Assembly: GCA_947307225.1 (NCBI GenBank)
Contig: CAMZIL010000001.1
Location: 124,001-188,000 of the forward strand
Reading direction: 5' to 3'
From: an uncultured Candidatus Saccharibacteria bacterium
Lineage (GTDB): Bacteria > Patescibacteriota > Saccharimonadia > Saccharimonadales > Saccharimonadaceae
DNA length: 64,000 nucleotides
Made by a program: the position numbers and the translations under genes. A model generated the notes under the pieces. That model saw nothing but the letters and a program-made list of their open reading frames with translations, was not told the origin of the DNA and ran no database searches. Shown here in pieces: positions 19,843-23,165 of the stretch; the stretch's first letter is position 1, and every line of letters begins with the position of its first letter.

Positions 19843-20223
19843 ATGTTAGCCGTAAGCTTTTTGCAGTGGTGGTATTCTCGCGGTTGGGGGATTTATTTTC
19901 GGGGATTCCGCGAGCGCATGCGCAATCTAGCAGACTTCTTTTCGATCGGGTTATTGCTCCGCACCCTCTTCCAGCCATTCCGTCAGATTTCGGCCGATGA
20001 AACCGGCGAGACCGGCGGCATTCAAGGCGCGTTAATCGCATTCTTCGACCGCCTACTTTCGCGCTTTATTGGCTGCGTCGTTCGCATCGGTATTATTGTT
20101 GCTGGTATTATTGCCATGACCGTACAGCTTGTTGGCGGCTGCTTACTCGCCCTACTCTGGCCATGCGTTCCGCTCGTTCCATTTATCGGCATCGCAATTT
20201 GCATGATGGGGGTAACTTTCTAA
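19843..20223 (+). CDS. Small membrane protein upstream of the Clp ATPase
   Basis: A 126-residue protein with an aromatic, basic N-terminus (LQWWYSRGWGIYFRGFRERM) and two or three hydrophobic helices in the C-terminal half (about 78-122). It has no known domain. Its stop shares TAATG with the start of the membrane-anchored Clp ATPase, so the two are co-translated and may form one membrane complex. Function unknown. Confidence 0.7.
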   Translation: MLAVSFLQWWYSRGWGIYFRGFRERMRNLADFFSIGLLLRTLFQPFRQISADETGETGGIQGALIAFFDRLLSRFIGCVVRIGIIVAGIIAMTVQLVGGCLLALLWPCVPLVPFIGIAICMMGVTF

Positions 20224-22616
20224 TGTCACAGCATTATTCCCCACTCTGCCGCCGTGCCGTCGAAGCCCGCGTCGACAAAATCGTTAACTCGAAACTAGTA
20301 AAAGCTCTCTTAATCCTCGCCTGCTTGGCGTTGCTTGGGTTTGGTTTAGCTCTAGTAATTGCCTACAAGAATGCCCTTGGTTGGGTCCTGGTTGGCTGCG
20401 CTGCGATTCCGTTCGAAATCCTCATCTGGGGCAAATACGAGTTAAAGGAAATTCCGGAAGGCAAAGGCGAAAACGTCAATGACTTGCTCAGTAACGAATG
20501 TTTACAGCATCTCGGCCATAAACCGACGCCACAGGATGTCGCGAAGTGGTTCTATAAGACCCGTAGCGGCGGCTTCCTTGCAATGCGCTATGCGATTACG
20601 CCACGCATGATGGAGGCGGTGACCTCGAGAATGTCGAGCGACATTGAGCCGATCTTCGCGAAGGCGATCGAAGTTCGCGAAAAGACAAATTCGGAATTCA
20701 TTTCCGGCGGCGTACTAACGATTGCGATTATTGAATGCTGCCCAGAATACGAGCAGATCCTAAAGTCGATGAAGCTCGAAATTAGCGACCTCTATGACGG
20801 CATCGTTTGGTTTAACTATCTTTACGATCTCGTTAAGGGTCTAAATCTCAAGCGTCGCACTGGCGGTTTCGCGCGCGATTTGATGTTTGGTTATACACCG
20901 CTTCTGCAACGCTATGCAATTAATATTTCGCGCCAGCACGAGTCAACACGCGGCGGGAATGTTTCGGTTTCACTGCACCGCGAGCACCTCGAGCAAATGA
21001 TTGATATCTTCTCGAAGGGCGGACGTCAGAATGTTGCAATTATTGGGCCTGAAGGTTCTGGGCGCGGCACGCTTGTCGACGAGTTTGCATCTGAGATTTT
21101 GAATGCAGACAACAAGATTTCTTCGCGCATCAAGTTCCGCCAAATCTTTAAGCTCGATGCTTCGGCGCTTATTAGCGGCGCTGGCGAACGCGGCGAACTC
21201 GAAGCATTGATGACGAGAATTCTAAACGAAGCATTCCTCGCAAAGAACGTAATTCTCTGGCTCGATAACGCCCAGCTCTTCTTCGAAGAAGCAACTGGTT
21301 CCGTAGATATTTCGAACGTACTTTTGCCAGTGCTCGAGGGCGGCAGATTGCGCATTATTATGACAATGGATCAGCAGCGCTATCTCGAAATTGCTGCGCG
21401 CAAGGCTGCGCTTGCTAACGCACTAAACAAAATCATGGTCGAGCAAGCCAACGAAGAGGAGACCTTCAAAGTTATGCAAGACCGCGTGCCAATTTTGGAA
21501 TACCAGAATAATGCAACCTATACCTTCTGGTCTTTGCGCGAGGCTTATCGCCTATCCGAGCGCTACGTACACGATCTTGTAATGCCTGGCCGTGCTTTGA
21601 ACTTGCTCGAAGCCGCAGGTCATTATGCCGTCAATGGTTTCGTCACTGATGCTTCCGTCCAGGAGGCGGTCGAAAAAACCTTTGGCGTGAAGATGCAGGC
21701 ATCACAGGACAATGTCGAGCGCGAAAAACTGCTCAACATGGAAAGTTTGATCCATAAACGTTTGATTGGCCAGGACATGGCAGTTACGGCAGTGAGCGAT
21801 GCCCTACGTCGTTCGGCTGCTGGCGTCCGCAACGAAGGCCGCCCAATTGGCACCTTCCTCTTCCTCGGCCCTACCGGCGTAGGTAAAACAGAGCTTGCGA
21901 AGGCAATTTCTGAGGTCTACTTCGGCGGCGAAAGCCAGATTGTCCGTATCGATTTGAACGAATACGTATCACCGGATGATGTTTCGCGCTTGATTGCCGA
22001 TGCCGCAACGGACGAGCTCAGCTTGACTGCGCAGGTTATGAAACACCCATTCTCCGTCGTGCTTCTTGATGAGATTGAAAAGGCGCATCCACTCGTTTTG
22101 ACAACTTTACTCCAGTTACTAGACGAAGGTATTTTACGCGACGTAAAGAACCGCGAGGTTAGCTTCCGCGATACGATCGTCGTGGCAACTTCGAACGCTG
22201 GTGCAAACAAGATTCGCGATTATATCGACCAAGGTCTCGATATGTCGCAAATCAAGGAACAGCTCACAAATGATTTGATTTCTGGCGGCGAATTCAAGCC
22301 GGAGTTCCTCAACCGTTTTGACGAGATTTGTGTCTTCCAGCCGCTCGATAAAGACGCTCTGTTTACGATCGTCGATCTTATTATTGCTGGCGTTAACAAG
22401 ACGCTCGAACCGCGCAAGATTTCCGTCACGCTCGAGCCAGAAGCCAAGGCCCTGCTCGTGGAACGCGGCTACGATCCAAAGCTTGGTGCGCGCCCAATGC
22501 GCCGCATTGTTTCGAAGACGGTCGAGAATATTGTGGCGCGCTCAGTCCTCGCTGGCGCTACCGATTCTGGCGATACAATCGCGATTAATGAAGATATGAT
22601 TAAAGCTGCGCTATAG
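20223..22616 (+). CDS. Membrane-anchored ClpC/ClpB-like AAA+ ATPase with degenerate D1
   Basis: A 797-residue double AAA+ protein. Two hydrophobic segments (about 26-47 and 53-69) replace a soluble N-domain, so it should sit at the membrane. The D1 Walker A reads GPEGSGRGT (275-283) with Arg and Gly where the catalytic Lys and Ser/Thr belong. The D1 Walker B reads LWLDN (345-349) with Asn for the catalytic Glu, so D1 is probably unable to hydrolyse ATP. D2 is intact: GPTGVGKT at 549-556, VVLLDE at 612-617, sensor ATSNAG near 655-660, and Arg finger region FLNRFDE. A Clp C-terminal domain follows (GYDPKLGARPMRR). It is likely a chaperone or unfoldase for membrane or exported proteins; no ClpP gene is in the window. 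TAATG links it to the preceding small membrane protein. Confidence 0.85.
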   Translation: MSQHYSPLCRRAVEARVDKIVNSKLVKALLILACLALLGFGLALVIAYKNALGWVLVGCAAIPFEILIWGKYELKEIPEGKGENVNDLLSNECLQHLGHKPTPQDVAKWFYKTRSGGFLAMRYAITPRMMEAVTSRMSSDIEPIFAKAIEVREKTNSEFISGGVLTIAIIECCPEYEQILKSMKLEISDLYDGIVWFNYLYDLVKGLNLKRRTGGFARDLMFGYTPLLQRYAINISRQHESTRGGNVSVSLHREHLEQMIDIFSKGGRQNVAIIGPEGSGRGTLVDEFASEILNADNKISSRIKFRQIFKLDASALISGAGERGELEALMTRILNEAFLAKNVILWLDNAQLFFEEATGSVDISNVLLPVLEGGRLRIIMTMDQQRYLEIAARKAALANALNKIMVEQANEEETFKVMQDRVPILEYQNNATYTFWSLREAYRLSERYVHDLVMPGRALNLLEAAGHYAVNGFVTDASVQEAVEKTFGVKMQASQDNVEREKLLNMESLIHKRLIGQDMAVTAVSDALRRSAAGVRNEGRPIGTFLFLGPTGVGKTELAKAISEVYFGGESQIVRIDLNEYVSPDDVSRLIADAATDELSLTAQVMKHPFSVVLLDEIEKAHPLVLTTLLQLLDEGILRDVKNREVSFRDTIVVATSNAGANKIRDYIDQGLDMSQIKEQLTNDLISGGEFKPEFLNRFDEICVFQPLDKDALFTIVDLIIAGVNKTLEPRKISVTLEPEAKALLVERGYDPKLGARPMRRIVSKTVENIVARSVLAGATDSGDTIAINEDMIKAAL

Positions 22617-22628
22617 CTTCTCCTTTTA

Positions 22629-22743
22629 ACTATCTATAGCAAGAACGTCGTAAAGCCGTCCCGTCGTTACGGGCGGCTTTCTCCTCACGCTCGGCCGTGG
22701 CCTGCGCGAGCTTGCTAAGATAGTCAAAAGTCGAGACTTTTTT
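22629..22743 (+). ncRNA. Candidate structured RNA with its own terminator
   Basis: Downstream of the Clp gene. A 13-bp closing stem pairs 22629-22634 and 22637-22643 with 22719-22724 and 22711-22717. Inside are a 12-bp hairpin (22652-22664 with 22669-22680, one bulged T, GC-rich) and a second GC-rich hairpin (about 22690-22710). AAAAGT/ACTTTT and a T run terminate it at 22726-22743. It does not show the conserved SRP-RNA loops. It could be a separate small RNA or a structured 3' UTR. Confidence 0.45.
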
Positions 22744-22745
22744 CG

Positions 22746-23165
22746 TTAATTTATATTGAAGTTTTCTGTGTTTAAATCACAGTAGTATCTGCCGCTAGTT
22801 GCAGTGAATTTTAGAACGCAATAATCCGGGTCGGTTACGCCCTTTTTATAGAACATCGTGTCGCCCTTCCTCCAGATCATATCTTTAGTTTTCTGATCAG
22901 TGAGGACTTCCATTTTTCCTTTTAGCATGACGCCTACATATTTAATGAGTCCTTTATGATAAAAGTAGATGCTGGCGTTCGGATTCTTTTTGTATTGGCT
23001 GACGCGCATAGAAGATGTATTTGTCGAGAAATAGAACTCTTCCAGGCCTACGCGTTTTCTCGGGCGGAGCATAGCCTTCACATTAGGGCAGCCTCCGTCG
23101 TCGACTGAGCAGATAAAACTTACTTTTTGTCTATCGATAAATTTTTCTATTTTTGCCAAATCCAT
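22746..23165 (-). CDS. Pyridoxamine 5'-phosphate oxidase-family flavin protein
   Basis: A 139-residue split-barrel FMN/F420-type protein. It opens with a helix (LAKIEKFIDRQKVSFICSVDD), then PNVKAMLRPRKR, FYFSTNTSSMRVSQYKKNPNASIYF and GVMLKGKMEVLTD, the standard order of the general stress protein 26/PPOX group. It probably reduces or binds a small cofactor or oxidised metabolite; true pyridoxamine oxidase activity is unlikely in this subgroup. ATG at 23165. It lies downstream of dnaK on the same strand but behind the dnaK terminator. Confidence 0.82.
   Translation of the reverse strand: MDLAKIEKFIDRQKVSFICSVDDGGCPNVKAMLRPRKRVGLEEFYFSTNTSSMRVSQYKKNPNASIYFYHKGLIKYVGVMLKGKMEVLTDQKTKDMIWRKGDTMFYKKGVTDPDYCVLKFTATSGRYYCDLNTENFNIN

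Follow-up and report, generated by a model that had tools for sequence, protein, structure and literature searches.

Short palindromic sequences that are dispersed through genomes have been described in several lineages. The Rickettsia palindromic elements (RPEs) are short dispersed palindromes, many of which lie in frame within unrelated genes and are apparently tolerated there (PMC10969869; PMC6649704). RPEs are reported to encode a conserved peptide. In the mitochondrial coding palindromes of Nematomorpha, long inverted repeats have native coding sequence in each arm, and the two arms are kept complementary; template switching is one proposed cause, and a shared mobile core is not mentioned in the cited part of that account (PMC6649704). 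The GTAG- and CGTC-tagged REP repeats are simple hairpins of 20-40 bp with a fixed terminal tag that are dispersed, often arranged as inverted pairs and in some cases intragenic, the CGTC type being without a dedicated transposase (PMC3733652).

The Saccharibacteria repeat described here resembles the RPEs in being a multi-copy dispersed palindrome of about 100-150 bp that, in sister genera, is inserted in frame in unrelated genes. Compared by description, it differs from them in that its unit is a three-way-junction core with locus-specific arms, and its filing as an RPE was rejected because no peptide is conserved in one frame, both orientations and several frames being used. Unlike the nematomorph palindromes, it carries a repeated core at every palindrome tip; unlike the REPs, its core is branched and its stem sequence is local. 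Bacterial MITEs are also small, non-autonomous and located near genes, but they carry conserved terminal inverted repeats, and this assignment was dropped because the ends of the repeat are not conserved between copies and the arms are complementary only within a copy. No published description of the element was found in the literature on palindromic or intergenic repeats, structured RNA or MITEs of Saccharibacteria and Patescibacteria. We consider it probable that the window holds one member of a non-coding palindromic repeat dispersed in a single Saccharibacteria family, in which the core is mobile and the arms are local, and which is selfish or neutral.

The locus in the window and its fold

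The window (the whole stretch of DNA analysed, 64,000 nucleotides) contains the following features at and around the repeat.

20163-22616, plus strand: neighbouring gene for a Clp/ClpB-type AAA+ ATPase (AAA_2 and ClpB_D2-small matches)
22615-22643, no strand: left arm of the outer stem (3′ arm in the orientation of the repeat), locus-specific, pairing with 22711-22738
22632-22720, minus strand: full match to the repeat-family model R1, comprising the core and the inner ends of both arms (91.7 bits, E 3e-23; the score is partly by construction, because the window copy is one of the model's 24 sequences)
22652-22680, minus strand: core hairpin C, a GC-rich stem with a one-base bulge and an AACG loop, whose pairs covary in relatives
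22684-22710, minus strand: core hairpin B, with a GGC(CACG)GCC tip, a small purine internal loop and a 7-pair basal stem, supported by covariation
22711-22738, no strand: right arm of the outer stem (5′ arm in the orientation of the repeat), from folding and sequence inspection
22726-22743, plus strand: palindrome AAAAGTC-GA-GACTTTT with a T run, seen in the sequence and overlapping the right arm
22746-23165, minus strand: neighbouring gene for a pyridoxamine-phosphate-oxidase-like (PNPOx-like) protein of 139 aa (PNPOx_N match)

The window copy is an ordinary intergenic copy, lying between two convergent genes. Its left arm reaches the stop codon of the ClpB-like gene, and dnaK is located beyond the PNPOx-like gene. 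An earlier note had interpreted the locus as an undescribed structured small RNA with an outer stem (22629-22643 with 22711-22724), two internal hairpins (22652-22680 and about 22690-22710) and a separate terminator hairpin (22726-22743). Sequence and folding bear out the stem, which is really longer (22623-22643 with 22711-22730), as well as the first hairpin at its place and the second at about 22684-22710. The palindrome at 22726-22743 is present too, but it overlaps the outer arm and was not picked up by the terminator scan; it is possible, judging from its sequence, that it acts as a weak terminator of the ClpB-like gene.

Both strands of 22600-22760 fold better as RNA than 200 of 200 dinucleotide shuffles, with -55.5 kcal/mol (z -4.0) for the plus strand and -65.4 kcal/mol (z -6.5) for the minus strand. 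The advantage of the minus strand comes from a G-U pair in place of an A-C mismatch of the plus strand, and from a tip that takes the form of a C(YACG)G loop, which we take to be of the YNMG type. The absence of any known RNA motif was confirmed: at gathering score, Rfam returned only two tRNAs in the whole window and no family at the repeat, and at E up to 10 there was no convincing match at the repeat locus, the best local scores being far under threshold.

Of the 45 genomes of the genus, only 5 have the PNPOx-like gene, and in genome G033 it is missing beside the orthologous Clp gene, so it may be a recent arrival. A mobile cassette made up of this gene and the repeat was considered and dropped, since the gene lies beside a copy only in G000 and G029 among those five genomes.

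Distribution of the repeat and its core

A DNA search of 61 related genomes yielded 31 matches in 13 genomes, with several matches to a genome; the genome that holds the window had two besides the copy described above. Twenty-four copies were aligned to build the covariance model R1, which gave 139 matches in 29 of the 45 genomes of the genus (seven copies in the window's own genome), the other 16 being without detectable copies. Four sister-genus genomes carry 22, 29, 35 and 9 copies by R1. Across the order (392 genomes), matches occurred in at least 99 genomes and, among the matches listed, in three of 156 sampled genera, all of one family; across the phylum (379 genomes), the seven genomes with a match all belong to the same single family. 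All 33 named matches of an exact-pattern search were Candidatus Saccharibacteria assemblies, and herbivore gut samples are the origin wherever the assembly title gives one. Two exact patterns gave 0 matches each in viral contigs, and phage records gave no match to the repeat. The Saccharibacteria genomes in the genus and order searches are small (0.5-1.3 Mb). The set of 76 genus copies comprises 79 R1 matches minus the three weakest (L103:2162, L101:291 and L116:1292), and the 71 sister-genus copies comprise 76 matches minus five weak or partial ones (L220, L222:2001, L242:1221, L261:3509 and L210:3454), whereas the alignments A2 (genus) and A3 (sister genera) kept all 79 and 76 matches. At one genus locus (L079, G029:C1:266601-266829), two copies lie in direct orientation 139 bp apart and the second has lost the 5′ arm that would match, which looks like the duplication of a single unit.

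This distribution speaks against a small RNA belonging to the Clp locus, as the earlier note had proposed: the feature is a multi-copy dispersed element, and the 3′ end of the Clp-type gene is without the repeat in 29 of 30 loci tested, the window being the exception. The Clp protein of G033 shows 98% identity across its last 99 residues, and its locus is among those without the repeat.

Read on the minus strand of the window, a copy consists of a conserved Y-shaped core of about 66 nt, formed by hairpins B and C, atop the outer stem. The tip of hairpin B is GGC-YACG-GCC across copies. Hairpin C is CCCGU-AACG-ACGGG in the window, and GACG is its commonest loop in sister genera. Covariation was detected at 15 of 21 core pairs in the 24 copies, at 19 of 21 in A2 and at 18 of 21 in A3, and in each alignment the covariation score was matched by 0 of 500 shuffles; the copies behind these tests are mostly paralogues. 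The compensatory changes in relatives that the earlier note had proposed to look for are therefore present.

In one genome, 68 identical nucleotides are common to the cores at four loci (L205, L206, L207 and L209), which sit in the Der, LepA, TrmD and ValRS genes with unrelated arms, and in another genome 65 identical nucleotides are common to the cores at three loci. Since identical cores at unrelated loci carry unrelated arms, the core spreads, or is homogenised, without the arms. These identities could have arisen by gene conversion among old copies; on the reading that we favour, they mark recent spread, and the core of about 66 nt would itself be the spreading unit.

Promoter-side copies and locus-specific arms

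Copies in the window's genus are mostly intergenic, with only 6 of 76 within open reading frames. A TATAAT hexamer was found 10-46 nt beyond the 3′ side of the core in 32 of 75 copies, whereas the 5′ side has one in 3 of 75. An ATG follows the 3′ hexamer within 3-12 nt in 29 of 75, so that about two fifths of the copies lie directly upstream of a TATAAT-ATG start. Close pairs of copies are arranged back to back in 16 of 18 cases, and never face to face. That TATAAT and ATG stand so close on the 3′ sides of copies, at many genes, suggests that leaderless transcripts are common in the genomes of this genus.

These regularities would also be expected if the repeat had been domesticated in the genus as a promoter-upstream or 3′-end insulator hairpin, its mobility belonging to the past. 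The excess of TATAAT on the 3′ side, the divergent arrangement of the close pairs and the conservation between genomes of some sites (L068 and L070, before groEL) argue for such a role. We nevertheless regard it as unlikely, because the window copy is of another type, its 3′ side abutting a gene end rather than a TATAAT-type start, because the repeat is absent at orthologous places such as the 29 Clp loci, and because 16 genomes of the genus have no detectable copies.

The outer stem spans about 20-50 bp, and its arms differ at every locus, yet are complementary within each copy. Among copies with full flanks and unique arms (73 in the genus and 70 in sister genera), the median pairing score was 43 in the genus and 40 in sister genera, compared with 14 for swapped partners in both; 71 of 73 and 67 of 70 copies scored above the best control, so that 138 of 143 exceed every swapped-partner control. 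Wobble pairs in the arms are skewed in the window's genus (163 G-T vs 84 A-C) and balanced in sister genera (99 vs 90). Together with the TATAAT on the 3′ side, the G-T excess suggests a selected RNA or a promoter-linked role in this genus, and this is the best evidence for a secondary role there, perhaps as promoter-side hairpins. At L068 and L070, which precede a gene named by eye as groEL, the 3′ arm extends across a TATAAT-like box as far as the opening codons, and an inverted copy of this gene start is found in the 5′ arm.

The arms might have come first, the core having inserted into palindromes that already existed (terminators or the tips of hairpins, for example). Among the uninterrupted LepA alleles, L292 does have a fairly strong palindrome (score 29, shuffle maximum 20), and two methyltransferase alleles (L231 and L255, the only such orthologous pair noticed) carry cores in opposite orientation between homologous arms, which would fit re-insertion into an existing palindrome. 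However, most other uninterrupted LepA alleles score like shuffles, and perfect palindromes of such length are improbable in native coding sequence. In a tRNA-methyltransferase-like gene, the arms extend into codons that align in uninterrupted alleles; flank complementarity there has a median of 22 in interrupted alleles (21 rows) vs 13 in uninterrupted ones (11 rows; Mann-Whitney p 0.002, relatedness ignored), and the 11 uninterrupted alleles have no palindrome and score like shuffled sequence. Since the flanks pair with each other in the interrupted alleles alone, direct insertion of a palindrome that was already complete does not account for every arm. We judge the arms-first order to be improbable. 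In TrmD of genome G327, the arms lie within linker sequence that other alleles lack, so arms may also form at insertion.

On the mobile-core reading, the long outer stem lies outside the mobile unit, its arms being local sequence that has turned self-complementary. Most likely, the hairpin core would make possible a template switch during replication by which one flank is copied onto the other, in the style of quasi-palindrome correction; such templated correction would account for the methyltransferase arms, and a like proposal exists for the nematomorph coding palindromes (PMC6649704). A stronger version, which we put forward tentatively and with less than even confidence, is that the 66-nt core is a new kind of selfish DNA that spreads without its stem and, at each landing site, rewrites both of its flanks, promoter and codons alike, into a long near-perfect hairpin by templated repair, and that leaderless promoters of the window's genus have taken up these hairpins.

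Copies within genes and the route of spread

In sister genera, 56 of 71 copies lie within open reading frames of at least 100 codons, 31 of them opposite to the gene and 25 along it. Because both orientations and several reading frames are used, the insert peptides differ. A profile scan of 19 of the 28 listed entries identified, above NCBIfam cut-offs, LepA, Der (two loci), TrmD, MnmA, TruB, LeuRS, ValRS, PheT, TsaD, GatA, AlaRS, UvrB, IleRS and DnaX as hosts, and in several cases the profile match is broken in two. A PcrA-like helicase and RecX matched under the cut-off, the L232 host passes only a domain model (FISUMP), and the L254 host protein had no profile match.

Reading frame is preserved at all three genes studied across alleles. 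In LepA, a copy recognised by the model lies in the linker after the G domain at 11 of 30 loci; 11 alleles have a spacing of 57-69 nt and 14 one of 102-192 nt, and 25 of 25 are in frame without stops, L287 being not measurable and four loci with a whole inserted gene being left out. The tRNA-methyltransferase-like gene, which has a weak match to tRNA guanine-10 methyltransferase ending just before the insert, is in frame and stop-free in 32 of 32 rows, inserts included (L304 was not measurable, and L217 and L307 are one place counted twice); 18 of 29 sampled alleles are long, and the model recognises 12. TrmD is in frame without a stop at 30 of 30 loci, 9 of which are long, with 6 recognised. 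Long alleles thus include inserts that the model does not recognise (6 of 18, 3 of 14 and 3 of 9 in the methyltransferase, LepA and TrmD, respectively). Inserts that were removed from the mRNA or skipped by the ribosome would not need a frame, so they are most likely translated, presumably as about 30 residues or more, and we infer that they are placed in surface loops or linkers of housekeeping proteins. A translational bypassing element (byp), whose untranslated insert is free of any frame constraint, was rejected on the same grounds, all measured inserts being in frame and stop-free. The repeat would be tolerated where it is harmless, between genes in the window's genus and in frame in housekeeping genes of sister genera.

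In four sister-genus loci (L271, L276, L279 and L288), lepA is split by a whole unrelated gene of about 800 nt after the G domain. The inserted gene differs in each (in L276, a histidine-phosphatase-like protein, named by eye), and the second half of LepA begins anew behind a separate TATAAT-ATG.

A genuine structured RNA family, either a small RNA or a cis-regulator, in which a minus-strand three-way junction with conserved loops is the selected fold, would account for covariation far over controls, for the G-T excess in the genus arms, for the fixed position 5′ of TATAAT-ATG starts, and for the better folding of one strand as RNA in 67 of 76 genus and 68 of 71 sister-genus copies, counts that share ancestry and are not independent. 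We find it doubtful, more so than the order in which arms precede core. The sister-genus copies lie largely inside genes and in both orientations, which speaks against a dedicated small RNA. Wobble is very rare in the core (A2: 1517 Watson-Crick, 19 G-T and 11 A-C cells, the 19 G-T being among 1599 cells; A3: 1401, 13 and 4) and balanced in the sister-genus arms, and selection on an RNA strand as the force shaping all copies was dropped for want of a wobble bias in those genera. On the 3′ side, the promoter-type hexamer is located beyond the element, which would leave those copies out of the transcript, and no promoter-like site was found by scan near the window copy. Of the small RNA in the earlier note, what stands is a real, conserved and undescribed structure; a small RNA of this locus is wrong or unsupported.

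The orientation of sister-genus copies tracks GC skew rather than gene strand: where the host gene is on the C-rich strand, 15 of 15 copies run along it, compared with 10 of 41 where it is on the G-rich strand (Fisher p 2e-7, with orthologous copies retained), which hints at a replication-linked, single-stranded step. An ordinary REP/BIME-type repeat moved by a RAYT (Y1 HUH) transposase would share this strand bias, the dispersed palindromes and the back-to-back pairs, but is very improbable, the unit being larger and branched with locus-specific arms, and Y1_Tnp being absent from 10 of 10 element-bearing genomes searched yet present in 3 of 6 searched genomes without copies. No transposase or other mobiliser was identified by that search. 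Insertion is deduced from orthologous genes, because the genomes yielded no pair of close strains that differ in the presence of a copy and have alignable intergenic flanks.

Selfish palindromes in essential genes are known from few lineages, mainly Rickettsia, and Saccharibacteria are now added, with up to 35 copies per genome and with hot spots in genes for tRNA modification, tRNA synthetases and GTPases. The family also carries a warning that strong covariation among paralogous copies need not imply a functional RNA. The separation of a mobile core from locally made arms makes evolution by template switching directly testable. If the core does rewrite its flanks, host proteins would evolve around a DNA palindrome, and hairpins would be part of leaderless promoters in the window's genus.
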